Source: Coriobacteriia bacterium (GTDB lineage Bacteria > Actinomycetota > Coriobacteriia > Coriobacteriales > Eggerthellaceae). Taken from it: a stretch of 64,000 nt of DNA. This document shows positions 32,712-40,119 of this stretch, piece by piece. Made by a program: the position numbers and the translations under genes. The number at the start of each line of letters is the position of its first letter. Position 1 is the first letter of the stretch. The stretch spans positions 1 through 64,000 of the forward strand of contig JAUMVJ010000002.1 of assembly GCA_030530215.1 (NCBI GenBank). Reading direction: 5' to 3'. The notes below the pieces were generated by a model. It did no database searches. It saw only the letters and a list, made by a program, of their open reading frames with translations, and was not told the DNA's origin.

Positions 32712-33755
32712 TCAAATTTTTATGTAGGCGGTGGTTCGTCCGCCGCCTACTTTTTTAATTTCGCCTTCGTCGAGTAGACGTTTAAGTTCGCGTTCGATGC
32801 TGGAATCGCTAATGTCGGGGCAGCGTTTGCGAATGTCGTCTTTGCTGATTTTGCCGAGGGCATATTCGAAAGTTTCGGCGATGCGCCGTGCTTTGCTTGT
32901 TGCGCGCATGCTTGCTTCTACGCAGTCGAATAGATCGCGATAAGCGCAGCAAAGAATCCCTAACATGAAGTTGATGAAGGGCGCTTCGTTGTTGTTTCCT
33001 GTTTCCCAACCCGTTGAGCTTTCCGCCAGTGTCTCGTAGTACAGGTTAAGGTGCTTTCCGATGATTTCTTCGATGCTGATGTAGCGTGGTACCAGGTAGC
33101 CGCATTTTTCTAGCAGAAGTACGGTTAGCAGCCTGCTCATGCGCCCATTGCCGTCGTTGAAAGGGTGGATGCTTACGAAGTCAAAGACAAAGCGCATTGC
33201 AAGCAAAAGAGGGTCCGAGTTTTCTTTTGCTGTTGCTAAACGGTAGGTCTCGCAAAGCTCTGCAACGGCATCGGGTGTGGCGATGGCGGGCGTTGGCTTA
33301 AAGCGCACGTAGGCTGTTCCGTCGGCGCGCTGTGCAACAATCTGATTGTCGGTATCTTTCCATGAGCCGCCGTAGGAGTAGCTGGTGTATTTCAACAGGT
33401 CGCGATGAAGCTGCAAGATAACAGCGGGTGTGGTCTGAATATATTCATATTGGCTATGGATAAGGGCAAGAACGTCACGATATCCGGCAATTTCTTTTTC
33501 GCTTCGCGTGCTGGGGGCGGCCTTTTCTTTAAGAATCTGTTTAAAGCGAGCCTTGGTGGTTACGATGCCCTCGATGCGATTAGATGCTTCGGTGCTAGCA
33601 AAGTGAGCCTGCTCGTGGAGCGAAGTTAGAATGGCGGGCTTTGCTGCGTTTAAGAGGACTTGCTTTCCTTTGAATTCGCGCAAGCAAAGAAGAAAACGCA
33701 GGGTTTCCTCGTTGTGCAGCAGTTTGGATGTTGTGCTGTAGTCGAATCGTCGCAC
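32712..33755 (-). CDS. Fic-domain protein with N-terminal inhibitory motif and winged-helix C-terminus
   Basis: The 347-residue protein has the full Fic motif HPFNDGNGRMSR (catalytic His197), the signature of AMP-transferases. The inhibitory motif S-x3-E-G is present in EASNRIEG (Ser58, Glu62, Gly63), placing it among Fic proteins with a built-in anti-toxin helix. The last ~70 residues look like a winged helix (DDIRKRCPDISDSSIERELK). I place the start at GTG 33755, because AAAGGAG lies six bases upstream; that site would otherwise be inside the frame, which stays open to 33782. No separate antitoxin gene is adjacent. Confidence 0.88.
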   Translation of the reverse strand: MRRFDYSTTSKLLHNEETLRFLLCLREFKGKQVLLNAAKPAILTSLHEQAHFASTEASNRIEGIVTTKARFKQILKEKAAPSTRSEKEIAGYRDVLALIHSQYEYIQTTPAVILQLHRDLLKYTSYSYGGSWKDTDNQIVAQRADGTAYVRFKPTPAIATPDAVAELCETYRLATAKENSDPLLLAMRFVFDFVSIHPFNDGNGRMSRLLTVLLLEKCGYLVPRYISIEEIIGKHLNLYYETLAESSTGWETGNNNEAPFINFMLGILCCAYRDLFDCVEASMRATSKARRIAETFEYALGKISKDDIRKRCPDISDSSIERELKRLLDEGEIKKVGGGRTTAYIKI

Positions 33756-34003
33756 CCCTGGCTCCTTTCTAATCTGCATCAAATATAGAATAAATGAGGT
33801 AGATTGTATTCACAAAAGATTCAGCAAAAGCGCAAGGTCCATTGGTGCGGATGTAGCAATCGCGGGCCGTAATCTGATACGAAAAAGCCGCCCATCAAGG
33901 TGTTTGATTGCATTGATTTTCATTCTTGGATACAGGGGGACGTGGTGTTAGCCATGCAAAAAACGAGCCTTAACAGCGCTCGAGCAGGGGGTGGAACGCG
34001 TTG

Positions 34004-35863
34004 CTAAAGCGCTTTCGATTGGTATAGGCCGTTGTCGACGAACCCGAGTTTTCGGTAGTATTCGCGCGTGCCCACGGCGCTGATTACGAAGATGCGTGTG
34101 CGTTCGTGCTCGCGTGCAATCTCGCAAGCACGTGCGACAAGCTTGCGCCCCAAGCCTAGGTGCTGGGTGCCTTCCTGCGCTTCGTGGAGGCGCTCCACTT
34201 TGCCGTAAACATGCACTTCGCGGATCATTACATCGTCCGCGGTGGTGGGCAAGTTCGCTGCCGAGCGGGAGTGGCGCTCGAGCGCTTCTTTTTTTGGAAG
34301 CGAAAGGCGCAGGAAGCCGGCAATTCTGTTTTCCGGGGTAACCCACTGCAAGAAGAACTCCGTGGTGGCCGTGGTGTCGTATTCGACGACGTCGAGCGTA
34401 AGTTCTTCCGGGCTAAAGCTGCTGCCTCCGACTTCGCGATGACGAATTTCTTGGATGCTGCCATTTTCGCGCGCCACTTGAGCCTCGATGATCTGACGCA
34501 GATTGGCGGTGCGGTTGCCTTGGATGATGTCTTGCGCGCTGAAGTCGCGGATCATGCGGCTTACGCGGGTGTAGGGCTGGGTCGCCATCAGGTTTTGCGT
34601 CATGAGCCATTGCAGCTGTCGGGATGAATAAGCGCTCCATTTTCCCTGATTTTGCAGCTCTTCAAGTTTGGTGCCGCCCAAAAGCACGCAGGGGTAGAGC
34701 TTCACTTCGTCGGGTTTGAAGCGCGGGTCGTTTGAGAAAATCTGGTAATCCGCTGCGTCGTCTTCGGGCGTGGCGCCTACCAAGTTCGCCATGAAGTGCG
34801 TATGCGTTTTAAAGCCGAACAGGCGCAAAAGCTCAAAGGCTTGGGTGAGCTGAGCGGCGGACATGCTGCGTCCGTTACGCGCAAGCGTTTCTTCGCAGGT
34901 GCTTTGCACGCCGATTTGGATTTTGGTGCAGCCGAGGCGTCGGGCGTTGCTTAGCGCTTGGGCGCTGATGGCGTCGGGCCTTGTTTCAACGACGAGCCCC
35001 ACGCAGCGATGCGCCGCGAATTCGTTGATGCGCTGCTGTTTTTCCACGTCCTCCCAACTAGCACTTTGCCCTTGGGCAAGTGCTTGCCAACGAGAATCGG
35101 CATCGTAGAGCGCATGGAAGGCCTGGTTGTACGTGGAGTCACCATGCAAGATCTTCTGCTGATCTTCTCGGACGAAGGAATCGAGCTCTTTATCGTCGGT
35201 GGTAAAGCCGGCGTCCGCATAACATTTGCGCAGGGTGGCGGCTTTTTTCTCGGCAAGGTTCGCATCTGAACCGCCCTTTGCTGCGCCCCGGCTTGGCTGT
35301 CCGGCTTCGTTGAGCGCCTCGAACAGACGGCTTATGTACCAGCGCTGGTAGGCATCGGGGTAAGTGGTCCAGCTTCCGCCCAAAACGATGAGTTCCACTT
35401 TATCGGTGATATGCCCCATTTGAGTGAGCGCCCGCAAGCGTGAGGTAACTTGCAAATACGGGTCGAAGAAGTTGCGCTCGGCGCGTTGACAAGCGGGTTC
35501 GTTATGAACGTAGCTTTTGGGCATACGCAGGTCGTTGGGGCAGAAGACGCAATTGCCTTCGCAGGGCCAGGGCTTGGTGATGACGGTGATGGTTGCCACG
35601 CCCGAGGCGGTTCGGCGCGGTTTTGCGCGCAGGCATCGAAGGAATTTTGCCTCAAGCGCGTCGTCAACATTCCAGCTGCGCCAAAGCTCGGGGCGCGAGT
35701 TCTTAGTTTCAAAATAGTGGCGCAAAAGCTTCTTCTTGCTTGCGCGTTTTGCGTTGTCGTGGATACCGGCATTATGCGAGCGGATGATCTTTGCAACTTC
35801 GTCAGGCGAGAGCTTGTTTGCGCCGCGAAGTTGGTCGAGTATGTCCACGAGAGCTTTGTCCAT
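34004..35863 (-). CDS. elp3: Elp3-type tRNA U34 carboxymethyl-modifying radical SAM/acetyltransferase
   Basis: The 619-residue enzyme is of the Elp3 family, which installs cm5-type groups on tRNA uridine 34 using SAM and acetyl-CoA. The radical SAM cysteines are C101, C105 and C108 in CEGNCVFCP; later come LGGSWTTYP, GVQSTCEETL and THFMANLVG. The last ~100 residues are a GNAT domain (VRE-less form with EVHVYGKVERL, HLGLGRKLVARACEIA). ATG 35863 lies seven bases after TATAAT, so the message is probably leaderless; the ATG at 35872 lies within that box. It is divergent from the Trm9-like gene at 35902. Confidence 0.92.
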   Translation of the reverse strand: MDKALVDILDQLRGANKLSPDEVAKIIRSHNAGIHDNAKRASKKKLLRHYFETKNSRPELWRSWNVDDALEAKFLRCLRAKPRRTASGVATITVITKPWPCEGNCVFCPNDLRMPKSYVHNEPACQRAERNFFDPYLQVTSRLRALTQMGHITDKVELIVLGGSWTTYPDAYQRWYISRLFEALNEAGQPSRGAAKGGSDANLAEKKAATLRKCYADAGFTTDDKELDSFVREDQQKILHGDSTYNQAFHALYDADSRWQALAQGQSASWEDVEKQQRINEFAAHRCVGLVVETRPDAISAQALSNARRLGCTKIQIGVQSTCEETLARNGRSMSAAQLTQAFELLRLFGFKTHTHFMANLVGATPEDDAADYQIFSNDPRFKPDEVKLYPCVLLGGTKLEELQNQGKWSAYSSRQLQWLMTQNLMATQPYTRVSRMIRDFSAQDIIQGNRTANLRQIIEAQVARENGSIQEIRHREVGGSSFSPEELTLDVVEYDTTATTEFFLQWVTPENRIAGFLRLSLPKKEALERHSRSAANLPTTADDVMIREVHVYGKVERLHEAQEGTQHLGLGRKLVARACEIAREHERTRIFVISAVGTREYYRKLGFVDNGLYQSKAL

Positions 35864-35870
35864 GGCTGCC

Positions 35871-35894
35871 ATTATACGGGTGTTGCTTTAGAAT
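35871..35894. promoter_or_regulatory. Back-to-back -10 boxes of the elp3 and Trm9-like genes
   Basis: On the minus strand TATAAT (35876-35871) lies seven bases before the elp3 ATG at 35863. On the plus strand TAGAAT (35889-35894) lies seven bases before the ATG at 35902. That spacing puts both transcription starts at or next to the start codon, and neither gene has a ribosome binding site. Confidence 0.6.
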
Positions 35895-35901
35895 CTGGCT
35901 C

Positions 35902-36894
35902 ATGGAACGTAGGGTCGCCGACATACTCAACGCCGCCACCAGCCGCTTCTACGTGCAGCAGGCGCGCTCGTTTTCGCAGACGCGTCAATCCGCCTGGCCG
36001 GGCTGGGAAAGGTGCCTGCCTTATTTGGACGAGCTTGCTGCGGCAGCGGGGGCTAGCACGTGCACCGCTGCGTCTAGCGATGCCGAGCTGTGCGGCGTCA
36101 CAAGGGGAGAGGTCGCTGCGGCGCTTGGCGATGCCGAGACGCATGCCGCCGCTGCAAGGCGCGGTGCGGCGAGACCTCTTTCCTTAGTGGATTTAGGCTG
36201 CGGGAACTTAAGATTTGAGGCGTTTCTTAAGGCTGCCCGACCTAACTTTCCGGTTGAGCTTACAGCGATTGATTTGGGGGCGGCTCTTTTCGAGCAGGCG
36301 CGACCGGGCATTTTCGACGATGCGCAAAACAGCAGCTCGTTTGACGATACCCTCTGTGGCGATGCGGTCTGCCCGGCTGGGCAGCTTGATGCGCATTCTT
36401 TCAAAATGCAGCTTGCCTCATTTCAAGATATCGACGTGATTACGCAAGCTCTTGAGCGGAAACCACTTTTAGGTATTCATCTAGGGAGATCGGCGGACAC
36501 CGTGCTCTGCTTCGGCTTCATGCATCATGTGCCGGGGCGCAAAACGCGGGAATTTGCCTTGCGCGAAATGCTTAAGCTTCTTCGGCCGGGAGGCATTCTT
36601 GCTGTTTCGTTTTGGCAGTTCATGAAAAGCCCTAAGTTGGCAGAGCAGACAGGGCAGCTGCGCGAACAGGCGCTATTCGATTTGGAGCTTGTTAGCGACG
36701 ATCTTGAGGAGGGCGACCATCTTCTTGGCTGGCAAAAAGCCTCGGGCGTGTATCGTTACTGCCACTCCTTCGGTGAAGCCGAGCTTGATTCTTTGGCAGG
36801 GGCGCTGTCCGACTTAGCTAAGCTCGAGGCTCGTTTCGAGGCCGATGGACGCACGGGGAATCTGAACTCCTATTTGATCTTGCGTCGCAAATAA
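35902..36894 (+). CDS. Trm9-like class I SAM methyltransferase
   Basis: The 330-residue methyltransferase resembles eukaryotic Trm9/ALKBH8, which methylate the cm5U34 made by Elongator. Shared landmarks are FSQTR (24-28) with WP (32-33), SAM motif DLGCGN (97-102), FMHHV followed by LREMLKLLRPGGILAVSFWQ (207-239), GDHLLGW (271-277) and YRYCHSF (284-290). Two inserts, Ala-rich at ~48-92 and Ser/Asp-rich at ~138-195, set it apart. It is divergent from elp3 with a 38-base gap. I judge methyltransferase as certain and Trm9-like as probable; the substrate is inferred. Confidence 0.85.
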   Translation: MERRVADILNAATSRFYVQQARSFSQTRQSAWPGWERCLPYLDELAAAAGASTCTAASSDAELCGVTRGEVAAALGDAETHAAAARRGAARPLSLVDLGCGNLRFEAFLKAARPNFPVELTAIDLGAALFEQARPGIFDDAQNSSSFDDTLCGDAVCPAGQLDAHSFKMQLASFQDIDVITQALERKPLLGIHLGRSADTVLCFGFMHHVPGRKTREFALREMLKLLRPGGILAVSFWQFMKSPKLAEQTGQLREQALFDLELVSDDLEEGDHLLGWQKASGVYRYCHSFGEAELDSLAGALSDLAKLEARFEADGRTGNLNSYLILRRK

Positions 36895-36976: not shown

Positions 36977-37097
36977 CATTAACTTCGTTTAGGGTATGAT
37001 TCGCCCATTGAAACTATGGCGTGGCGGCATAAGTCGGCTAAGCCGCGGGCTCGCAAGCACGAGCGGGCACCGCAACTCTGAAGCGAAGGAGCACACC

Positions 37098-37697
37098 ATG
37101 AACGTTGCATGCTTGGATCTTGAAGGCGTATTGCTGCCTGAGGTCTGGATTGCTTTTGCCGATGCCGCGGGCATTCCTGAGCTGCGTAAAACCACGCGCG
37201 ACGAGCCCGATTACGACAAACTCATGCGTTATCGCCTGGAGGTTCTGGCGGAACATGGCATGACCTTGCCAGACATTCAAGCGGTTGCCGCAAAGGTGGA
37301 TCCGCTGCCTGGCGCCAAGGAATTCTTGGATGCCCTGGAAAAGGAAATTTCGGTCATCATCGTGTCCGATACTTTCGAGCAGTTTGCGGCGCCTTTGATG
37401 GCCAAACTCGGCAACCCGACTATCTTCTGCAATAGCCTGGTAACCGACGAGACGGGCAAGATCATCGACTACAAAATGCGTTGCGAGCAAAGCAAGCTGA
37501 CCACTATCAAAGCACTGCAGAGCTGTGGCATGGAGCCAATTTGCGTGGGCGATAGCCATAATGATCTGGGCATGATCTTGAATGGCAAGACCGGTTTCTT
37601 GTTCAACACCACCGAGGCCATCAAGCAGGAATACCCGCAAGTCCCCGCCTTCGATAACTACGACGATCTGCTAGAGGCCATCAAAGCCGCACGCTAG
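37098..37697 (+). CDS. thrH: Phosphoserine phosphatase / homoserine phosphotransferase ThrH
   Basis: The 199-residue HAD phosphatase closely resembles Pseudomonas ThrH. It dephosphorylates phosphoserine, the last step of serine synthesis, and can pass the phosphate to homoserine. Motif I is CLDLEGVLLPEVWIAFA, motif II is IIVSDTF, and motif III is GDSHNDLGM. The TTRDEPDYDKLMRYRLEVL cap region also matches ThrH. AAGGAG precedes ATG 37098. It is a single gene between the Trm9-like gene and a strong terminator. Confidence 0.92.
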   Translation: MNVACLDLEGVLLPEVWIAFADAAGIPELRKTTRDEPDYDKLMRYRLEVLAEHGMTLPDIQAVAAKVDPLPGAKEFLDALEKEISVIIVSDTFEQFAAPLMAKLGNPTIFCNSLVTDETGKIIDYKMRCEQSKLTTIKALQSCGMEPICVGDSHNDLGMILNGKTGFLFNTTEAIKQEYPQVPAFDNYDDLLEAIKAAR

Positions 37698-39423: not shown

Positions 39424-40119
39424 TTACAGATCGAAGCCGAAGGTTCCTTTATCCAGTGGTTCCACCAGGGTGACGTGAAGCGTCGGCTCGTCCACGGTGA
39501 AGCGGATGTTGTAGCCCGCAAAAGCCATGGCATAGCTTTTCTCCGGGTTGTTTTGCAGGGGCGGACGCGGGTCTTGCGCGAGCGCCTCGATAAGCCCGGC
39601 CTGTTTTTCTTCTTGAACTTTTGCTAGCTCGCTTGCGGGGAAATCGACCTTAAGCGGTTGCCAGGGCTCGTCGTCGGTCCAGCCACCGTTGGCTTCGGGG
39701 TGGCAGTCGGCGAAAGGCAAATAGGGTTTGATGTCAAGAATCGGCGTGTTGTCGCGTAGATCGGCGCCCAGAACATGGACGAAAGGCACGCCGTCGACCA
39801 CTTCCACCTTGTCAAGGCGCACACAGGAAAGGCCTAGGGGGTTGGGGCGGAAGGGCGAGCGCGTGGCGAAGACGCCCATGCGGCGCGAGCCTCCCAGGCG
39901 AGGAGGGCGAACGGTTGGTCGCCAGTGGTCGCGATCGGTGTTTTCGAATTGCCAGATTAGCCACAGGTGGCTGAATTCTTGCAAGCCTCGGACGGCTTCG
40001 GGGTTGGCAAACCCCGGCTCAAAGATGATGACGCCCTGGGTGTCGGCGGCAAGCCCGGCATTGCGGGGTATTCCGAACTTTTGGTGATAGTCGGTATGGA
40101 TGTGCGCAATCGGTTTCAT
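39424..40119 (-). CDS. trmO: tRNA (t6A37) N6-methyltransferase TrmO
   Basis: The 231-residue protein belongs to the TsaA/TrmO family, which methylates N6-threonylcarbamoyladenosine-37 in tRNA-Thr. The beta-barrel domain shows PRNAGLAADTQGVIIFEP, LQEFSHLWLIWQF, MGVFATRSPFRPNPLGLSCV and NTPILDIKPYLPFAD, all family signatures. A C-terminal extension (FTVDEPTLHVTLVEP) is usual for bacterial members. It follows the PAP2 gene on the same strand, 87 bases away. Its upstream ribosome binding site is weak. Confidence 0.92.
   Translation of the reverse strand: MKPIAHIHTDYHQKFGIPRNAGLAADTQGVIIFEPGFANPEAVRGLQEFSHLWLIWQFENTDRDHWRPTVRPPRLGGSRRMGVFATRSPFRPNPLGLSCVRLDKVEVVDGVPFVHVLGADLRDNTPILDIKPYLPFADCHPEANGGWTDDEPWQPLKVDFPASELAKVQEEKQAGLIEALAQDPRPPLQNNPEKSYAMAFAGYNIRFTVDEPTLHVTLVEPLDKGTFGFDL

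Follow-up and report, generated by a model that had tools for sequence, protein, structure and literature searches.

Divergent elp3 and trm9-like genes in Coriobacteriia suggest a two-enzyme bacterial route to the tRNA modification mcm5U34

Introduction

Elp3 and a Trm9-type methyltransferase, encoded by two divergently oriented genes in members of the Coriobacteriia, probably constitute a tRNA modification pathway in which cm5U34, the product of Elp3, is converted by the Trm9-type enzyme to mcm5U34, which MnmA may then thiolate. We assign this reading, which is based on sequence comparison, a probability of roughly 0.8. The pair was found in the window, that is, the whole stretch of 64,000 nucleotides of DNA that was analyzed. 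It derives from a genome assembly of 1.47 Mb that is 64% complete and whose kin are Coriobacteriia. Enzyme homology, catalytic residues, genetic linkage and co-occurrence are all observed directly. A shared mcm5U34 pathway had already been put forward in a first-pass annotation of this DNA; homology, conserved residues and linkage support that idea, but the counterpart of one yeast Trm9 residue, Y243, is a cysteine.

Results

Organization of the locus

Elp3 (622 aa, a radical SAM + GNAT protein identified by TIGR01211 and matches to Elp3 structures in the PDB) is encoded at 34004..35872 on the minus strand and the class I SAM methyltransferase (330 aa, based on translation, Pfam and a family profile) at 35902..36894 on the plus strand. 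According to these gene coordinates, a divergent intergenic region of 29 bp (35873..35901) separates both start codons. The head-to-head layout described in the first-pass annotation is therefore correct, with adjusted boundaries: it had let Elp3 run from 34004 to 35863 and the methyltransferase start at 35863, an interval that also covered the intergenic region and the terminal part of elp3. Position 35863 corresponds to the second ATG of elp3, an alternative start. In relatives, the gap between both genes is often 30-200 bp. Promoter and terminator scans at the intergenic gap yielded consensus-level matches only, which were set aside.

Several neighboring genes were recorded. A Fic-family protein gene (32715-33782, minus strand; PF02661, 1e-16) adjoins elp3, and a gene for a ThrH-like HAD-family phosphatase (36996-37697, plus strand) adjoins the methyltransferase gene; a similar phosphatase gene is located near the pair in three other genomes, G013 (L127), G008 (L129) and G020 (L132). 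At 2.5 kb from the pair, the window encodes TrmO, a tRNA m6t6A37 methyltransferase (39427-40119, minus strand; PF01980, 2.3e-42), making it a second gene for anticodon-loop modification in this region.

Elp3 retains its catalytic residues

The window Elp3 scores 404.5 bits against TIGR01211 (curated cut-off 350) and can be aligned to Elp3 structures from archaea, bacteria and eukaryotes, with PDB E values down to 5e-78. Alignment with Methanocaldococcus Elp3 (MinElp3) places its [4Fe-4S] cysteines C104, C108 and C111 (CX3CX2C; 35540..35563, minus strand) at C90/C95/C98, and these cysteines are kept in all 73 aligned Elp3s of relatives. Likewise, K158, K355, H554 and Y605 correspond to MinElp3 K150, K266, H463 and Y517, the last being part of the acetyl-CoA site (34058..34060, minus strand; kept in 71/71). 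MinElp3 Q461 is replaced by E552, a Glu in each of 71 aligned relatives. Overall, the site residues are kept in 71-73 aligned relatives, with a single Arg at the K150 position. Mutagenesis has shown the mapped MinElp3 residues to matter for acetyl-CoA use, H463 being dispensable (PMC6367351). With its catalytic residues kept, the window Elp3 is taken to be an active enzyme, as judged from sequence.

The Coriobacteriia Elp3s are divergent, scoring about 400 bits compared to 600 for distant actinobacterial Elp3s. The Zn-binding cysteines of the linker are gone in the window Elp3 (I473/E475/H478) and are lost in relatives too. In bacteria and archaea, these cysteines have been called strictly conserved; as they are missing from eukaryotic Elp3s as well, they do not define the Elp3 family. 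The radical SAM domain contains an insert of ~80 residues (about residues 191-275) that PDB Elp3s lack and that relatives seem to share in differing versions.

Sequence comparison places the methyltransferase in the Trm9 family

The open reading frame at 35902-36894 (plus strand) reads MERRVADILNAATSRFYVQQARSFSQTRQSAW...LVDLGCGN...GFMHHVPG...LLRPGG...EEGDHLLGWQ...YRYCHSFGEAEL...NSYLILRRK and contains every motif landmark previously pointed out, among them 'FSQTR...WP', which is present although its actual letters are FSQTRQSAWPGW. The SAM-binding motif I (LVDLGCGN) lies at 36184..36207 (plus strand) in the family alignment. Since the landmark motifs recur in about 310 relatives on genome contigs, they are not due to chance.

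Pfam and NCBIfam provide generic methyltransferase names only, with Methyltransf_11/12/23/25 above cut-off, and a single-sequence phmmer search with the window protein was uninformative. A profile of 29 relatives searched against the PDB, on the other hand, retrieved Yarrowia Trm9 (5cm2_Z) as its top match (E 6.6e-6; runner-up 1.4e-4), ahead of 49 further matches, nearly all of them methyltransferases. Homologues from other Actinomycetota families match the methyltransferase family at E values of 1e-17 to 1e-24. One such distant relative, searched alone against the PDB, matches Trm9 over nearly its full length (residues 26-225) at 1.9e-18, followed by the next hit at 5e-13, in an alignment that takes in ETRxxxW at the N-terminus and the RYYH strand at the C-terminus. 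The strong match of these distant relatives to Trm9 bridges the gap between the window family and Trm9.

For a reciprocal HMM search and for residue mapping, yeast Trm9 and human ALKBH8 reference sequences were used that are presumed to be accurate; the Trm9 sequence gives all published residue numbers (29, 115, 241, 243, 271). The resulting HMM matches 113 of the 116 family ORFs, and a signature of the combined motifs finds 108/116; neither picks up any ORF outside the family among the 7,188 that the fetched loci contain. The Trm9/ALKBH8 placement made at first reading is thus borne out by a top match in the whole PDB and by a reciprocal search that is specific for the family.

Structure comparison was less specific. 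In a Foldseek search with the AF2 model of the window protein (pLDDT 84), generic class I enzymes dominate and Trm9 ranks sixth, and when structures are compared by Z, METTL6 and NTMT come first, Trm9 lying outside the listed matches. Given this lack of specificity, we did not rely on the fold by itself, and the comparison made with the predicted model is counted against the mcm5U34 reading. Using the model of the distant relative, Trm9 is the first-ranked Foldseek match, with a TM score of 0.85 on the target. The likeness of the window model to CmoM is at the level of the fold (8joz, Z 17.4); CmoM appears neither as an NCBIfam match nor among the PDB sequence matches of the methyltransferase profile.

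The shared class I fold and the similarity of the window model to METTL6, NTMT and other enzymes besides Trm9 would fit an enzyme acting on another RNA or on a protein, linked to elp3 through regulation or shared metabolism only. We regard this as very unlikely, as the sequence match to Trm9 exceeds that to every other methyltransferase in the PDB, the substrate residues are conserved, and in two actinobacterial groups that are only distantly related, the gene and elp3 are jointly present or absent. By sequence, the 330-residue protein is a Trm9-type enzyme.

Four of five cm5U34-orienting residues are invariant

According to a review by the authors of the Trm9 structure (PMC5372719), residues R29, H115, R241, Y243 and N271 of yeast Trm9 orient cm5U34, and both tRNA binding and turnover suffer when they are lost; the alanine mutant of Y243 loses activity. 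R28, H208, R285 and N322 are the window counterparts of R29, H115, R241 and N271, each found in all 29 homologues. R28 lies in the FSQTR motif (35971..35985, plus strand), part of the N-terminal FSxTRxxxW feature of the Trm9 family, and is common to yeast Trm9, ALKBH8 and the archaeal and distant actinobacterial homologues. H208 is part of the HH motif (36523..36528, plus strand), and N322 is encoded at 36865..36867 (plus strand). R285 is located in RYCH (36754..36765, plus strand), which by alignment and in the AF2 model belongs to a predicted β-hairpin lid with strands 272-277 and 280-288, R285 being on the second; a two-stranded β lid has been described for Trm9 (PMC5372719). The counterparts H208, R285 and N322 are also kept in 6/6 distant relatives.

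The Y243 position is occupied by C287 in the window protein, and by Cys in 26 of the 29 homologues, with Ala in two and Val in one. In distant Trm9 relatives, this position is C, Y, F or V, and an archaeal homologue keeps Tyr. Because it varies in clear distant Trm9 relatives, Y243 is not treated as family-defining; still, a counterpart that appears as Cys, Ala or Val throughout the aligned Coriobacteriia family counts against the mcm5U34 reading. It could be that this Trm9-lineage enzyme acts after Elp3 on some other product, such as a further-modified or thiolated cm5U, with an end product different from mcm5U. Such a course would accommodate the Cys in nearly all members as well as the divergent Coriobacteriia Elp3s with their lost linker Zn cysteines. 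We nevertheless consider it unlikely: the equivalents of R29, H115, R241 and N271 are invariant, and distant relatives encoded beside a canonical Elp3 also have C, V or F at Y243, which shows that this substitution does not depend on a divergent Elp3.

The two genes are almost always present or absent together

The predicted co-occurrence with elp3 is near perfect, both in the class and across the phylum. Among 149 genomes of the Coriobacteriia class, 73 carry both genes, one carries Elp3 alone, none the methyltransferase alone and 75 neither. Carriers of the pair include Collinsella, Slackia, Adlercreutzia, and relatives of Olsenella and Atopobium. The sole exception, G132, is 100% complete, and its Elp3 without a methyltransferase counts against the mcm5U34 reading. 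In a set of 296 Actinomycetota, 28 genomes encode the methyltransferase, and precisely these 28 encode Elp3. Six of these 28 belong outside the class and have a much more canonical Elp3; in four of the six, both genes are divergent on one contig.

In the class genomes, 67 of 74 methyltransferase copies lie <5 kb from elp3 in divergent orientation, and two are tandem neighbors (G008 and G090), adjacency having been kept after rearrangement. In a second collection of 80 contigs, which partly overlaps the class genomes already counted, Elp3 is nearby in 74 and on the opposite strand in 72; of the six remaining contigs, five have the methyltransferase gene near their upstream end. In G144, a class relative, elp3 and the methyltransferase gene are separated by two inserted genes (L128), one of which encodes an HTH regulator, but are still divergent. 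The congeneric genome G003 carries two methyltransferase copies (C4:255276-256094, L130; and C6:123767-124519), one beside elp3 and one elsewhere, possibly a paralogue with another substrate. Two apparent irregularities were dismissed: the fused methyltransferase of G013 is an 833-codon open frame around an ordinary divergent gene, and the joint decay in G004 reflects a run of N in the assembly that cuts both genes.

Could adjacency simply have been inherited by descent, without functional meaning? The genomes are related, so that the Fisher value for co-occurrence (1.6e-42) overstates independence and is given descriptively only. Mere chance neighborhood is nonetheless highly improbable, since both genes are present or absent jointly within genera (in genus g28, G160 has both and G030 neither; in genus g57, G082, G104 and G118 have both and G093 neither), adjacency survives inversion to tandem as well as inserted genes (L128), and the genes are paired again in distant Actinomycetota.

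Other U34 modification genes in the class

MnmE and MnmG searches were positive in E. coli, B. subtilis and others. Of the 149 class genomes, 148 lack MnmG, and a complete MnmE above cut-off turned up in none; MnmE-like matches were rejected, as they cover the GTPase domain only and fall below cut-off. The single MnmG in the class sample (G107, C8:4785-6362; E 7.6e-220) represents a lateral gain or contamination. MnmA, by contrast with MnmG, is present in 148/149 genomes, including that of the window. In the pair-carrying genomes, Elp3 is the only U34 C5-modifying route that we could find in searches that covered MnmE and MnmG. The 75 genomes with neither gene also lack MnmG, bar one exception, and keep MnmA; the same searches revealed no known U34 C5 modification in genomes without the pair. 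A simple replacement of MnmEG by the pair was rejected, since pair-less genomes are without MnmG as well.

Yeast Trm9 and human ALKBH8 need Trm112. Matches to the Trm112 family (PF03966) have low scores, fall for the most part within long frames and show no correlation with the Elp3-methyltransferase pair across genomes; G000 has none. A highly divergent Trm112 may nevertheless be encoded. As the yeast and human enzymes depend on Trm112, the lack of a correlated one here counts against the mcm5U34 reading.

Discussion

In the pathway that we favor, Elp3, without other Elongator subunits, would use SAM radical chemistry and acetyl-CoA to make cm5U34 in certain tRNAs. The Trm9-type enzyme would transfer a methyl group from SAM to the cm5U34 carboxylate, yielding mcm5U34; its Arg/His/Arg/Asn set would hold cm5U as in Trm9, Trm112 apparently being unneeded. 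MnmA, a housekeeping thiolase, may 2-thiolate the Lys, Glu and Gln tRNAs to give mcm5s2U34. Substrate, product, the set of tRNAs, Trm112 independence and the later thiolation are what we infer for this pathway.

The eukaryotic system, composed of Elongator (Elp1-6) and Trm9-Trm112 or ALKBH8-TRMT112, has the Elp3 catalytic core and the Trm9 fold in common with the bacterial pair. Shared with Trm9/ALKBH8 are the FSxTR..W motif, the HH, the R-Y-x-H lid strand and the Asn, and the order cm5U34 to mcm5U34 would be the same, as predicted here. In contrast to the eukaryotic system, the bacterial locus consists of two divergent genes with no correlated Trm112, and the window protein differs from Trm9 by Cys in place of Tyr243 and by a long insert before motif I. 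Among archaea, Haloferax combines a stand-alone Elp3 with a Trm9 homologue (HVO_2888 with HVO_0574 or HVO_1032), as here, and archaeal Elp3 and Trm9 homologues are clustered in Sulfolobus solfataricus (PMC2584109; PMC5372719). In archaea, thiolation is carried out by Tuc1/NcsA and a Trm9-Trm112 complex has been reported (PMC7694415), whereas the bacterium studied here has MnmA and no linked Trm112. Archaea are a precedent, and the Elp3-Trm9 pair would be a simplified version, in bacteria, of a pathway that is already known.

Bacterial MnmE-MnmG (cmnm5U/mnm5U34) also acts on C5 of U34 and serves the same decoding boxes, but the enzymes are unrelated and the side chain is different. Bacterial CmoM is a class I enzyme that methyl-esterifies the U34 carboxyl of cmo5U34. 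Its fold is similar to that of the window enzyme, without a match at the sequence level, and its substrate is cmo5U from CmoAB, not an Elp3 product.

A 2017 review described the methyltransferase partners of Trm112 as having no bacterial relatives (PMC5372719), and a 2020 review assigned mcm5U to archaea and eukaryotes, not to bacteria (PMC7694415). No description of a bacterial Trm9 was found in the open-licence papers that were searched, preprints excluded. The two genes hardly ever occur apart, and the gut-type bacteria that carry them are likely to produce a tRNA modification ascribed until now to eukaryotes and archaea only. That a lineage devoid of MnmE-MnmG makes both of the eukaryotic-type nucleosides mcm5U34 and mcm5s2U34 by a hybrid route, composed of a stand-alone Elp3, a Trm112-independent Trm9 and the bacterial thiolase MnmA, is the furthest-reaching interpretation, which we hold to be somewhat favored.

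If true, the boundary of mcm5U, now drawn around archaea and eukaryotes, would move to include culturable bacteria such as Collinsella and Slackia, and the role of the stand-alone Elp3 in these bacteria would be explained. Moreover, the pair would serve as a model, made up of just two proteins, for a pathway with ties to human disease, and it would raise the question how the half of the class that lacks both the pair and MnmG decodes with U34.
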